Source: Nocardia vinacea
GTDB taxonomy: Bacteria > Actinomycetota > Actinomycetes > Mycobacteriales > Mycobacteriaceae
Direction of reading: 5' to 3'
Length of the DNA stretch: 64,000 nt
Assembly (NCBI RefSeq): GCF_035920345.1
Contig: NZ_CP109149.1
Location: forward strand, 5,952,001-6,016,000
Part shown: one piece after another, positions 8,738-22,620 of the stretch
Layout of the letters: every line of letters starts with the position of its first letter
Position numbering within the stretch: the first letter of the stretch is position 1
Made by a program: the position numbers and the translations under genes
Notes under the pieces: model-generated
Told to the model about the DNA's origin: nothing
The model's database searches: none
The model's input: the letters and a program-made list of their open reading frames with translations, nothing else

Positions 8738-9355
8738 TCAGAAGGTGCCTTGTTCACGGGCGCGGGCGACGGCCGAGGTGCGGGAGCGAACGCCAAGCTT
8801 GGCGTAGATGTGCACGAGGTGGGATTTGACGGTGGTTTCGCTGAGGAAGAGTGCCTTGGCGATCTCCCGGTTCGAACTGCCGTCGGCCACCAGGCGCAGC
8901 ACCTCGATTTCGCGCGGACTCAGGGTGGTATCGGCGCGGCGCACGCGGATCATCAGCTTGGATGCCACCGCAGGCGACAGCACGCTCTCCCCCGCGGCCG
9001 CCGAGCGCACCGCCACGAGCAGTTCCATCGGTGGGGTGTCCTTGAGGATGTAGCCGCAGGCTCCGGCCTCTATAGCGCTGAGAATGTCAGCGTCGGTGTC
9101 GTAGTTGGTGACCACCAGGACATTGGGCGGCTGAGCGAGCGCACGCAATTCGGCCGTCGCGTCGACGCCGGAGCGGCCCGGGCCGAAGCTGAGATCCATC
9201 AGCACCAGGTCGACCGGGGTGGTGGTACAGAAGGCGACGGCGGCCTCAGCGGTCGGTGCGTCTCCGACGACTGTGATGTCGTCATTGCTTTCCAGTAGTG
9301 CGCGCAGGCCCGCGCGCACGATGGCGTGATCGTCGACCAGGAGTAGGCGAATCAT
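8738..9355 (-). CDS. NarL/LuxR-family response regulator
   Basis: A 205-residue two-domain response regulator. The receiver domain (1-120) has the acidic pair D8-D9, phospho-acceptor D54 in VLMDLSFG, and K105 in GYILKDTPP. The LuxR-type helix-turn-helix (about 140-200) carries LSPREIEVLRLVADGSSNRE and LSETTVKSHLVHIYAKLGV. Its ATG overlaps the kinase stop codon (ATGA, 9352-9355), so the pair is translationally coupled and is the cognate effector of the upstream kinase. The divergent ABC transporter at 10964-12767 is a plausible target, as in many actinobacterial kinase/regulator/ABC sets, but no operator was identified. Confidence 0.95.
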   Translation of the reverse strand: MIRLLLVDDHAIVRAGLRALLESNDDITVVGDAPTAEAAVAFCTTTPVDLVLMDLSFGPGRSGVDATAELRALAQPPNVLVVTNYDTDADILSAIEAGACGYILKDTPPMELLVAVRSAAAGESVLSPAVASKLMIRVRRADTTLSPREIEVLRLVADGSSNREIAKALFLSETTVKSHLVHIYAKLGVRSRTSAVARAREQGTF

Positions 9356-13982: not shown

Positions 13983-15392
13983 ATGAGCGTGCGCGATGCA
14001 ATGCGGCCGACGGGAAACGATCCCGGCGGGATACCGGCCGGACTGAGGCGGGTGGTGGCCGCGTCCATGGCCGGCACCGTGGTCGAGTGGTACGAGTTCT
14101 TCCTCTACGGCACGGCCGCGACGCTCGTCTTCAGCAAGGTGTTCTTCGCCAAGGGCACCAGCGATCTCGACGCGATCCTCGCCGCCTTCATCACCTACGC
14201 CGTCGGCTTCGCCGCACGTCCGTTGGGCGGCGTCGTCTTCGGACATTTCGGTGACAAATACGGCCGCAAGAAGCTACTGCAGTTCAGTCTGGTGCTGGTC
14301 GGTGCCGCGACCTTCCTCATGGGCTGTCTGCCGACCTTCGCCCAAATCGGTTATTGGGCACCGACATTGCTGGTGGTCCTGCGATTCATCCAGGGTTTCG
14401 CGGTCGGCGGCGAATGGGGTGGCGCGGTACTGCTCGTGGCCGAACACAGTCCGAACTCCAGGCGCGGATTCTGGGCGAGCTGGCCACAGGCCGGGGTGCC
14501 GGTGGGAAATATGTTGGCGACGGTCGCTTTGCTGGCATTGACCTCGACGCTGTCCGACGCCGCCTTCCTGAGCTGGGGTTGGCGCGTGGCATTCTGGTTG
14601 TCTGCGGTGGTCGTGCTGGTCGGGTACTACATCCGCACCAAGGTCACCGACGCACCCATTTTCGTTGCGGCACAGCAGGAAATCGAACAGATCAAGTCCG
14701 ATTCGCTCAGTGTCGTCGAGGTGCTGCGGCGCTACCCGCGCGGCGTATTCACCGCCATGGGGCTGCGATTCGGCGAGAATATCCTCTACTACCTGGTGGT
14801 CACCTTCACCATCACCTATCTCAAGGTGCAGGTGCATGTCGACACCAAGGTCATCCTCTGGTGGCTGCTGGCCGCACATGCCGTGCACTTCTTCATGATT
14901 CCGTTGGCGGGCAATCTCTCCGATCGTTTCGGCAGACGGCCGGTGTATCTGGTCGGCGCGCTCACTGCGGGCACCTGGGGCTTCTTCGCTTTCCCGATGA
15001 TGGACAGCGGCCACAACGCGATCATTATGTCCGCGATCATTATCGGCCTGGTATTCCATGCCTTCATGTATGCGGGCCAGCCCGCGATCATGGCCGAGAT
15101 GTTCCCCACCCGGATGCGGTATTCCGGTGTCTCCCTCGGTTATCAGGTCACCTCGATCGTGGCCGGATCGCTCGCCCCGATCATCGCCGTGCGCTTGCTC
15201 AATACCTACAAGTCCGCGGTCCCGATCGCCCTGTATTTGGCTGCGGCCGCGGCGATTACCGCGATCGCCGTCCTGTTCGCCCGCGAAACGAAGGGCATAA
15301 CCCTGGAGAGCATCGACACCGCCGACGCGGAAACCCTTGCCGCACAGAGCCCGGCAGCGCGAGCCGAAACCCTACGAGTGGAGCTCACATGA
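13983..15392 (+). CDS. MFS transporter, metabolite:H+ symporter (MHS) family
   Basis: A 469-residue, 12-helix transporter of the ProP/ShiA/KgtP (metabolite:H+ symporter) type. The N-terminus has AGTVVEWYEFFLYGTAATLVF, and the loop motif GGVVFGHFGDKYGRKKLL is the sugar-porter/MHS signature between helices 2 and 3. FIQGFAVGGEWGGAVLLVAE is the family's fourth-helix motif, and the second half repeats the loop as GNLSDRFGRRPVYLVG. An AAGGAG ribosome-binding site precedes ATG 13983. Downstream, coupled through a small linker ORF, is 3-hydroxybutyrate dehydrogenase, so uptake of 3-hydroxybutyrate or a related small acid is the best inference. MHS members also carry dicarboxylates, shikimate and betaines, so substrate is not proven. 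Confidence 0.9.
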   Translation: MSVRDAMRPTGNDPGGIPAGLRRVVAASMAGTVVEWYEFFLYGTAATLVFSKVFFAKGTSDLDAILAAFITYAVGFAARPLGGVVFGHFGDKYGRKKLLQFSLVLVGAATFLMGCLPTFAQIGYWAPTLLVVLRFIQGFAVGGEWGGAVLLVAEHSPNSRRGFWASWPQAGVPVGNMLATVALLALTSTLSDAAFLSWGWRVAFWLSAVVVLVGYYIRTKVTDAPIFVAAQQEIEQIKSDSLSVVEVLRRYPRGVFTAMGLRFGENILYYLVVTFTITYLKVQVHVDTKVILWWLLAAHAVHFFMIPLAGNLSDRFGRRPVYLVGALTAGTWGFFAFPMMDSGHNAIIMSAIIIGLVFHAFMYAGQPAIMAEMFPTRMRYSGVSLGYQVTSIVAGSLAPIIAVRLLNTYKSAVPIALYLAAAAAITAIAVLFARETKGITLESIDTADAETLAAQSPAARAETLRVELT

Positions 15393-15502
15393 GCGAGCGC
15401 AGCGAGCGAACAAAAGGGACAGCCGAGCGCAGCGAGCGAACGACAGGCACAGCCGAGCGCTCGGTCATGACGGAACCGAGCGCCGGCGAGGTGCAGTCAT
15501 GA
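15389..15502 (+). CDS. 37-codon bridging ORF, Ser-Glu-Arg repeat peptide
   Basis: A short ORF that begins at an ATG overlapping the transporter stop (ATGA, 15389-15392) and ends at a TGA overlapping the start of 3-hydroxybutyrate dehydrogenase (ATGA, 15499-15502). It encodes MSERSERTKGTAERS... with three related Glu-Arg-Ser units and ends ...TEPSAGEVQS. The underlying DNA contains two copies of a ~30-bp unit built on GAGCGCAGCGAGCGAAC. No domain is recognisable. It could simply carry ribosomes from one gene to the next, or be repeat DNA that happens to be open. A second ORF with the same design lies at 22055-22135. Whether a stable peptide is made is unknown. Confidence 0.5.
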   Translation: MSERSERTKGTAERSERTTGTAERSVMTEPSAGEVQS

Positions 15503-20897: not shown

Positions 20898-20901
<4 letters not shown>

Positions 20902-22058
20902 GTGATTTTCTGTCCACCGGCACACTGCCCGAGGACTATCGCGACCTGGCACTGACCGTGCGCGATTTTGCCAAGTCGGTGGTCGCCCCGGTAGCCGCCG
21001 AACACGATGCGAACCATACGTTTCCGTACGAGGTCGTCGCGGGCATGGCCGATATGGGTCTGTTCGGCCTGCCGTTCCCGGAGGAGTACGGCGGTATGGG
21101 CGGAGACTACTTCGCGCTGTGCCTGGCGCTGGAGGAGCTCGGCAAGGTCGATCAAAGTGTGGCGATCACCCTGGAGGCCGGTGTCTCGCTGGGCGCCATG
21201 CCCATCTACCGCTTCGGCAACGATAAGCAGAAGCAGGAATGGCTGCCGCAGTTGACAAGTGGCCGCAATCTCGCCGCCTTCGGCCTCACCGAACCCGGTG
21301 CGGGCAGCGATGCGGGCGGCACCAGGACCACCGCGGTCGCCGACAGCGGCGAATGGGTCATCAATGGCAGCAAGCAGTTCATCACCAACTCCGGCACCGA
21401 TATCACCAAACTGGTGACGGTGACCGCGGTGACGGGACAGTCGGGCGGTAAGAAGGAGATCTCGACCATCCTCGTACCCACCGACACCCCCGGCTTCGTG
21501 GCCGAACCCGCCTACAACAAGGTCGGCTGGAATGCCTCGGATACGCATCCGCTGAGCTTCACCGACGTCCGGGTGCCGGAGGAGAATCTGCTCGGCGAGC
21601 GCGGTCGCGGCTACGCCAACTTCCTGCGCATTCTCGACGAGGGCCGCATCGCCATCGCGGCGCTGTCGGTGGGAGCGGCTCAGGGCTGTGTCGACGAGAG
21701 CGTGCGCTACGCCAAGGAGCGCGAGGCCTTCGGCCAGGCCATCGGCCGTAACCAGGCCATCGCCTTCAAGATCGCCCGCATGGAGGCGCGCGCCCACACC
21801 GCGCGTACCGCGTACTACGACGCCGCCGCACTCATGCTGGCGGGTAAACCTTTCAAGAAGGAAGCCTCCATCGCGAAGCTGGTGGCCAGCGAGGCGGCCA
21901 TGGACAACTCCCGCGACGCCACTCAGATCTTCGGCGGCTACGGCTTCATGAACGAATACGCTGTGGCCAGGCACTATCGCGACAGCAAGATCCTGGAGAT
22001 CGGCGAGGGCACAACTGAGGTGCAGTTGATGCTGATCGGACGGGAACTGGGCCTGTGA
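20898..22058 (+). CDS. fadE19: Acyl-CoA dehydrogenase (FadE19-like)
   Basis: A 386-residue FAD-dependent acyl-CoA dehydrogenase that makes an alpha,beta-enoyl-CoA. Family signatures are [42 protein letters not shown], and [20 protein letters not shown]. The C-terminal [10 protein letters not shown] places a glutamate (E370) at the position used as base by most members. The alternative helix-G glutamate used by true isovaleryl-CoA dehydrogenases is a glycine here (LDEGR), so the preferred substrate may be another short or branched acyl-CoA. Gene order matches M. tuberculosis fadE19 next to accA1. The start overlaps accA1 by 4 bp. Confidence 0.92.
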
Positions 22059-22135
22059 CCGAGCGAAGCGAGGGAACCATCAGCACAGCACCAACGGTCG
22101 CAGCGGAGCCGAGCGCCAGCGAGGCGGAGCTGTGA
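22055..22135 (+). CDS. 26-codon bridging ORF, Ser-Glu-Arg type
   Basis: A GTG overlapping the dehydrogenase stop (GTGA, 22055-22058) opens a 26-codon frame whose TGA overlaps the GTG of the MaoC gene (GTGA, 22132-22135). The product begins [12 protein letters not shown] and ends AEPSASEAEL. Both its position and its sequence pattern (M-[S/T]-E-R-S-E near the start, E-P-S-A-x-E near the end) mirror the linker ORF at 15389-15502. No domain is recognisable. It may be a coupling device or merely open repeat DNA. Confidence 0.5.
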   Translation: MTERSEGTISTAPTVAAEPSASEAEL

Positions 22136-22620
22136 CCGAGACAGACGCTCCACGCCGCGTGGTGCAGCGCGGCCTGTGGTTCGAGGAGTTCGAGACCGAT
22201 GTGGTGTACGAGCACCGGCCGGGCCGGACCATCACCGAGGCCGATAACGTCCTGTTCACCACGCTGACCATGAACACCCAGGCGCTGCACCTGGACGCCG
22301 CCTTCAGCGAACAGTTGCCGCCGTTCCACCAGCGCCTGGTGAATTCGATGTTCACCCTGTCCACGCTGATCGGCCTCTCGGTCGCGCAGCTGACCCAGGG
22401 CACGATCGTCGCCAACCTGGGCTTCTCCGAGGTCGCCTTCCCGAAGCCGCTGTTCCACGGCGACACCATGTATGCCGAGACGGTGGTCACCGATAAGCGC
22501 GAATCCAGGAGCCGTCCGGGCGAGGGCATCCTCACCTTCGCGCACACCGCGCGCAACCAGCATGGCGATATCGTGGCGACGGCGGTACGAAAGACATTGG
22601 TACGCAAGGAGCCCGCATGA
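22132..22620 (+). CDS. MaoC-like hot-dog hydratase (Rv2499c-like)
   Basis: A 162-residue MaoC-type hydratase domain protein. The hot-dog catalytic segment is visible as RTITEADNVLFTTLTMNTQALHLD, with the conserved Asp and His, followed by LVNSMFTLSTLIGLSVAQL and FPKPLFHGDTMYAETVV. Such proteins hydrate trans-2-enoyl-CoAs to (R)-3-hydroxyacyl-CoAs. In this position, as for M. tuberculosis Rv2499c beside the CitE-like Rv2498c, it could hydrate the carboxylated enoyl-CoA made by the carboxylase. The start is GTG 22132, overlapping the bridging ORF, and its stop overlaps the lyase start (ATGA). Confidence 0.88.
   Translation: MTETDAPRRVVQRGLWFEEFETDVVYEHRPGRTITEADNVLFTTLTMNTQALHLDAAFSEQLPPFHQRLVNSMFTLSTLIGLSVAQLTQGTIVANLGFSEVAFPKPLFHGDTMYAETVVTDKRESRSRPGEGILTFAHTARNQHGDIVATAVRKTLVRKEPA

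Follow-up and report, generated by a model that had tools for sequence, protein, structure and literature searches.

A 26-codon micro-ORF between the FadE and MaoC genes of Nocardia vinacea: very probably a copy of a MIRU-like mobile relay repeat

Why would a micro-ORF of only 26 codons lie between two operon genes and share four nucleotides with each of them? The case was met in a stretch of 64,000 nucleotides of Nocardia vinacea (assembly GCF_035920345.1, contig NZ_CP109149.1, positions 5,952,001 to 6,016,000), called the window hereafter; all features below lie on its plus strand. The upstream gene codes for FadE, an acyl-CoA dehydrogenase (20898..22058; Pfam PF00441, PF02771 and PF02770), and the downstream gene for a MaoC-like hydratase (22132..22620; PF01575). 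The micro-ORF starts with GTG and occupies 22055..22135. Its first tetranucleotide, GTGA (22055..22058), holds the FadE stop and the micro-ORF start, and its last, again GTGA (22132..22135), holds the micro-ORF stop and the MaoC start. This double overlap had been described in an earlier note on the locus, and the coordinates are exact, the geometry is as described and the neighbors are identified by Pfam. We conclude that the micro-ORF is very probably a copy of a non-autonomous mobile relay repeat of the MIRU type that would couple the downstream gene, the two GTGA representing the left and right copies of the target tetranucleotide.

A second copy is present in the window at 15389..15502, flanked by an MFS transporter gene on one side and an SDR gene on the other. 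It contains an in-frame internal duplication of 30 bp: GAGCGCAGCGAGCG is found exactly at 15395 and again at 15425. The earlier note had attributed GTGA ends to this copy and had considered its terminal peptide patterns the same as those of the copy at 22055. The tetranucleotide is in fact ATGA at both ends, and the peptide ends (MSERSERT...EPSAGEVQS) are indeed alike, but similar only and not identical.

Short open frames are frequent in GC-rich genomes, and the micro-ORF could thus be a chance frame. The host genome, a single contig of 10.36 Mb, argues strongly against this. The pattern DTGASCGAGCGNAGCGAG, derived from both window copies, matches it 79 times with at most one mismatch, compared to two matches for the reversed pattern used as control. 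R1, a sequence-only model of 81 positions built on 49 aligned copies, has at least 151 matches at E ≤ 1, the best at 7e-21 and the last few weak; 150 candidates were scored in this search, and 151 may be a lower bound. The element is hence a short repeat in many dispersed copies. At the level of the phylum, only 3 of 246 genomes match at E 1e-6, all from the host genus, under strict filters with 18 candidates scored (genome G072 is unmatched there although it reaches 5.5e-6 in the order search, see below), and this speaks against an artefact of composition. By copy counts, E-values and taxonomic restriction, the chance-frame explanation is refuted, and its remaining probability is negligible. 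That the two window cases belong to a recurring element and are no coincidence, as the earlier note had proposed, is supported by the same numbers.

With a profile HMM (E 0.01), 146 distinct copies were delimited in stretches fetched around most of the R1 matches, 111 of them full-length. By strict criteria, 80 of these 111 carry an open micro-ORF of 22-30 codons closing in DTGA at the 3' end of the element. With a looser start, which lets in copies that lack 9 bases, in frame, close to their 5' end, the open micro-ORF from DTGA to DTGA is kept in 98 of the 146 copies and absent in 48. The internal ORF, overlapping the downstream start and, if present, the upstream stop, is mostly 26-27 codons long in Nocardia copies. 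With a threshold of 60 codons, 77 of the 98 copies that keep the geometry are followed by an ORF, and in 56 of the 98 an upstream ORF stops at the DTGA of the micro-ORF. The downstream frame is clearly favored: among 68 non-tandem coupled copies, 100 or more codons are open in the DTG frame in 56 and in the +2 frame in 24, and for 60 or more codons the counts are 59 and 34 (the zero obtained for the +1 frame is uninformative, as the TGA itself closes that frame). On the upstream side, ORFs of 100 codons or more terminate at the TGA in 37 of 80 coupled copies; for the two other frames the counts are 7 and 14. A genome-wide search had been suggested in the earlier note, and its outcome is that the pattern is neither confined to the window nor mostly broken in its geometry. 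The preserved coupling of operon genes, also proposed there, is likewise supported by this layout, from which the coupling itself is predicted. Head-to-tail tandem arrays occur as well, with three units from 5292822, two at 6523643 and two at 7752588, among others. At six loci (L021, L048, L052, L057, L073 and L076), the frame of the element runs on into downstream frames of 231-672 codons, which thereby gain SERSER-type N-terminal extensions.

A mobile element should leave empty sites in relatives, and these were observed. The regions around FadE were compared in 80 relatives (highest FadE identity kept, 97%, in Nocardia amamiensis). In 73 of them, MaoC follows FadE within 3 kb, and across all 80 regions, the R1 family has no match better than E 0.1. 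In the seven Nocardia relatives inspected, the FadE-MaoC junction keeps a bare GTGA. The SDR gene of the other window copy was located in six of the 80 regions, all six with ATGA at the SDR start and without the element. The comparison with and without the insert, envisaged in the earlier note for strains and made here across species, therefore shows both window sites empty in relatives, with the DTGA kept.

The sister genome G009 provides a closer comparison. Eighteen of its best 30 copies are common to the host by both flanks (two of these being neighbors in one array); the other 12 are without a match among the host loci fetched. The L001 junction is filled in the host and empty in G009, where a GTGA is found. 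The same holds 5' of qcrA, where a cytochrome c gene precedes it (both assigned by Pfam), and the junction 3' of qcrA is empty in the host and filled in G009. Insertion at a start-codon DTGA that is free of the element in relatives is thus seen at the two window junctions and at the three junctions compared with G009. At the junction 5' of the L009 gene, the insert is common to host and G009; the other relatives inspected have no intact copy, and L280 has a decayed element-like stretch there. The 15389 site is also occupied in G009, with a different middle. Two pairs of orthologous filled sites (L413 vs. L005 and L426 vs. L022), compared by eye, are conserved in ends and flanks but differ clearly in their middles. 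Different middles at shared sites suggest an exchange between copies or a reinsertion.

Other inserts were noticed at such junctions. A second small repeat of Nocardia, with a motif near GCGCAGCGTAACCACGGAGGGC, seems by eye to occupy similar junctions: in L102 near 9160, and 5' of qcrA in L298, L299, L308 and L310. In L102, this repeat reads through into MaoC and its frame does not close. The FadE-MaoC junction of two Mycolicibacterium (L114 and L136, near 9160) contains tandem repeats of GAGCGGAGCGAACGATCAGG or GAGCGGGGCGAACGATCGGG, and that of a Mycolicibacter (L147, near 9150) a hairpin-like insert of ~100 bp.

The two ends of the copies agree with each other in most cases. Of the 68 non-tandem coupled copies, 53 have the same D letter at both ends (Fisher p 4.2e-7 when the single T copy is left out); if only copies with an NC-DTGA 3' end are retained, the figure is 42 of 57 (p 3.2e-5). 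The 15 disagreements comprise 12 copies with G at the 5' and A at the 3' end, two of the reverse type and one T with A. This agreement fits a duplication of the target DTGA, which would take place upon insertion. At L001, the right end in the host is ATGA, and the empty site of G009 has GTGA; together with the D disagreements, this mismatch leaves a strict duplication unproven. At this junction, either the start codon may have mutated to ATG afterwards, or the element may have brought in the end. Part of the agreement can also be subfamily sequence: among the copies examined, five of nine that start with GTGACC finish with CTGTGA.

The signals for translation are arranged accordingly around the two ends. 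In the copy at 22055, a Shine-Dalgarno-like GAGG (22121..22124) precedes the MaoC start by 7 nt. The same GAGG, at -11..-8 and seven bases 5' of the downstream start, is kept in 79 of 80 coupled copies. On the other side, 5' of the micro-ORF start, a Shine-Dalgarno-like match (at least 4 of 5 letters) is found in 52 of 80 copies, compared to 18 of 80 in shuffles. Because of this excess at the target, together with the conserved GAGG, the ribosome site of the target appears to serve the micro-ORF. The following relay can be proposed. A mobile repeat of about 80 bp, of the MIRU type and non-autonomous, would insert in sense orientation into the DTGA of a start codon, in many cases one that the TGA stop of an upstream gene overlaps. 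The DTGA would afterwards flank the insert at both ends. The ribosome-binding site of the target gene would then drive translation of the micro-ORF, and the GAGG-N7-DTGA end of the element would re-initiate the ribosome at the displaced gene. Both the translation of the micro-ORF and the translational coupling are predictions from these signals.

In such a relay, the open frame and the end signals would matter, and the micro-peptide would probably not be the relevant product. The opposite view, that the micro-ORF encodes a functional small protein family that came to lie between operon genes by happenstance, draws on the resemblance of the peptide ends across copies and on the 5' block, where third codon positions are the most variable (0.19, 0.26 and 0.38 for the three positions), an excess driven by a CGN arginine codon. 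This leaves some room, with some doubt, for selection on the peptide in that block. In the 3' block, on the contrary, third positions are the least variable (0.26, 0.26 and 0.20), and 12 of 80 coupled copies have their first half in another frame, which is still open (CAG replaces the second AGC serine codon, VSERQRVN being an example). It is because of this low third-position variation and of the shifted-frame copies that the peptide is probably not the product. Lengths and middles of the micro-ORFs also differ among copies, neither window micro-peptide matches a Pfam family at E 0.001, and relatives have the same junction without this micro-ORF. A functional small protein is therefore very unlikely, and the relay repeat is the preferred explanation.

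The middle of the element was said in the earlier note to differ between copies. This holds, although the note was unaware that the middles of the Nocardia copies have the signature of a covarying hairpin. An initial test of the best stem anywhere against mononucleotide shuffles gave a weak result (4.15 vs. 3.71, the highest of 300 shuffle means being 4.13), and it was replaced by an arm-permutation test, in which arms are shuffled between copies and which can be inflated by kinship among copies. In 43 dereplicated host copies, the mean central stem is 3.84 bp versus 2.77 (sd 0.15) after shuffling, with 0 of 5000 permutations reaching this value. The 18 dereplicated copies of the genus search behave similarly (4.06 vs. 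3.08, 0 of 5000), and the nine of these that are unlike any host copy give a weak signal (3.89 vs. 3.16, 166 of 5000). The letters of the hairpin vary between copies, so its sequence is not conserved. In the copy at 22055, the center of the middle is ACC-AAC-GGT (22090..22098), a weak, three-pair version of the hairpin, of which many other copies have a longer form. Among 16 copies meant to represent other families, one of which (L332) belongs to the host genus, the test lends no support to covariation (2.12 vs. 2.45), nor does it with longer loops (3.13 vs. 3.18). The covarying hairpin is accordingly claimed for the Nocardia copies only, where the arm statistics point to it.

A hairpin inside a leader-like frame may recall a regulatory RNA or attenuator, with the micro-ORF as leader peptide and the central hairpin tuning how the downstream gene is expressed. 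The covariation of the arms in the two Nocardia sets speaks for such a device. The copies, on the contrary, precede unrelated genes; the hairpin is weak in the copy at 22055 itself; and the arm test fails in the 16-copy set, though such copies keep the relay geometry. In addition, no Rfam family is found in the window at gathering score. An attenuator is thus unlikely.

Presumably, an enzyme moves these elements. The repeats of the REP/RAYT system and the MITEs derived from IS200/IS605 are small, non-autonomous and hairpin-bearing, and end in tetranucleotides. The ends and the hairpin of the Nocardia element are similar to those, with the difference that its hairpin sequence is not conserved between copies. 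An origin as a REP-like or IS200/IS605-derived repeat, with a Y1 (HUH) transposase working on the single-stranded hairpin as the mover, would agree with the short size, the tetranucleotide ends, the central hairpin of the Nocardia copies and the lack of evident terminal inverted repeats, and the host genome has two Y1_Tnp matches. In the genus, however, Y1_Tnp is present in only 10 of 59 genomes (host included). Six genomes with 51-79 counted copies (G005, G008, G017, G041, G045 and G048) have none; G055, conversely, has three Y1_Tnp matches without any copy. Y1_Tnp genes do not track copy number, which leaves a Y1 transposase unsupported as the mover; this origin is rather improbable, even if such an enzyme may have acted in the past. 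None of the R1 matches listed, read by eye, proved to be a longer and autonomous version bearing these ends.

The distribution of the element reaches beyond the genus. R1 has matches at E 0.01 in 57 of 59 genomes of the host genus (the host itself among them); the count per genome ranges from 0 to at least 84, with 78 candidates scored in each. The order search (298 genomes, E 1e-4) gave matches in 110 genomes, spanning 25 of 76 genera, and 102 of these 110 belong to families other than that of the host. Within the host family, the other genera give a single weak match (G251, E 8.6e-5); the 20 other-genus genomes of this family listed among the non-matching ones have no R1 match at E 1e-4. Three other families (f15, f16 and f12) supplied the 23 loci with the best scores (L328-L351 without L332): in 22, the best copy keeps the frame from DTGA to DTGA, and in 19 of those 22 the downstream ORF has at least 60 codons. 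Ten of the 23 precede one same gene and probably represent one old insertion. No match was found on plasmids and phages by blastn to E 0.01 with the 81-base element as query, nor for one exact two-block pattern in the viral contigs of IMG/VR.

The best-known repeats of comparable design are the MIRUs. In a 2025 review (PMC12548453, citing Supply et al. 1997), they are presented as mobile repeats of mycobacteria inserting at start codons, whose internal ORF then overlaps the gene by 4 nt (-4 nt spacing) and is coupled to it; their size is given as about 40-100 bp (PMC2734929). The Nocardia element shares with them the short dispersed copies, the insertion at start codons, the internal ORF, the -4 nt overlap and the tandem arrays. 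The Mycobacterium copies fetched have the same double overlap as those of Nocardia. MIRU-like micro-ORFs are even found in Mycobacterium at the FadE-MaoC junction itself (near 9130-9260), with 29 codons in L141 and 19 codons in both L145 and L151; each ends in the ATGA of MaoC, and DTGA overlaps both ends. The FadE-MaoC site is thus occupied by different elements in different lineages.

The two groups differ in other respects. The micro-ORFs of Nocardia mostly have 26-27 codons, compared to 18 in the simplest mycobacterial copies. The covarying hairpin is a feature of the Nocardia copies; the mycobacterial MIRUs were compared by sequence and geometry alone. The HMM of the Nocardia copies gave no significant similarity on 33 mycobacterial loci, some of which lack a MIRU-like copy (best E 2.2). 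Two typed composites share one 11-base word, GAGCGCAGCGA, and a word of this length also arises in 8 of 3000 shuffles of bases and in 110 of 3000 shuffles of codons. On these two results, membership in the mycobacterial MIRU sequence family was rejected. The Nocardia element is MIRU-like in design and target and, judged by sequence comparison, forms a separate family with no detectable homology.

Small ORFs whose TGA stop lies within the RTG start of the next gene are reported as over-represented in mycobacteria (Shell et al. 2015, PMC4633059). They share with the Nocardia element a stop-start junction of the RTGA type. In comparison, the main text of that report presents small proteins opening leaderless transcripts, not a repeat family, and does not contain the term "MIRU". 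Among the titles and abstract openings listed from the open-access literature, none describes start-codon relay repeats outside mycobacteria.

Taken at their widest, these observations may tentatively be read as follows, a generalization we consider possible without favoring it: MIRUs could be one branch of start-codon-targeting relays spread over the order, which would share the DTGA target, spare operon genes by their own ribosome site and overlap, and be moved in trans by an enzyme. The Nocardia bodies would in addition be covarying hairpins, and may be exchanged at occupied sites.

Mobile DNA that lands on the start codon of an operon gene and leaves the operon apparently unbroken is a neat answer to the damage caused by transposition. 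As far as the literature was searched, such relays are described for mycobacteria only, and the Nocardia copies are a second family, without detectable sequence kinship to the mycobacterial MIRUs. The range of 0 to more than 80 counted copies per genome within one genus, together with the reciprocally filled and empty sites of sister genomes, offers clean material for asking what moves these elements and whether the coupling protects the host gene. For annotation, the finding is a warning: it is the repeat that supplies the start codons beside it and, in some frames, SERSER-type tails at the N-terminus.
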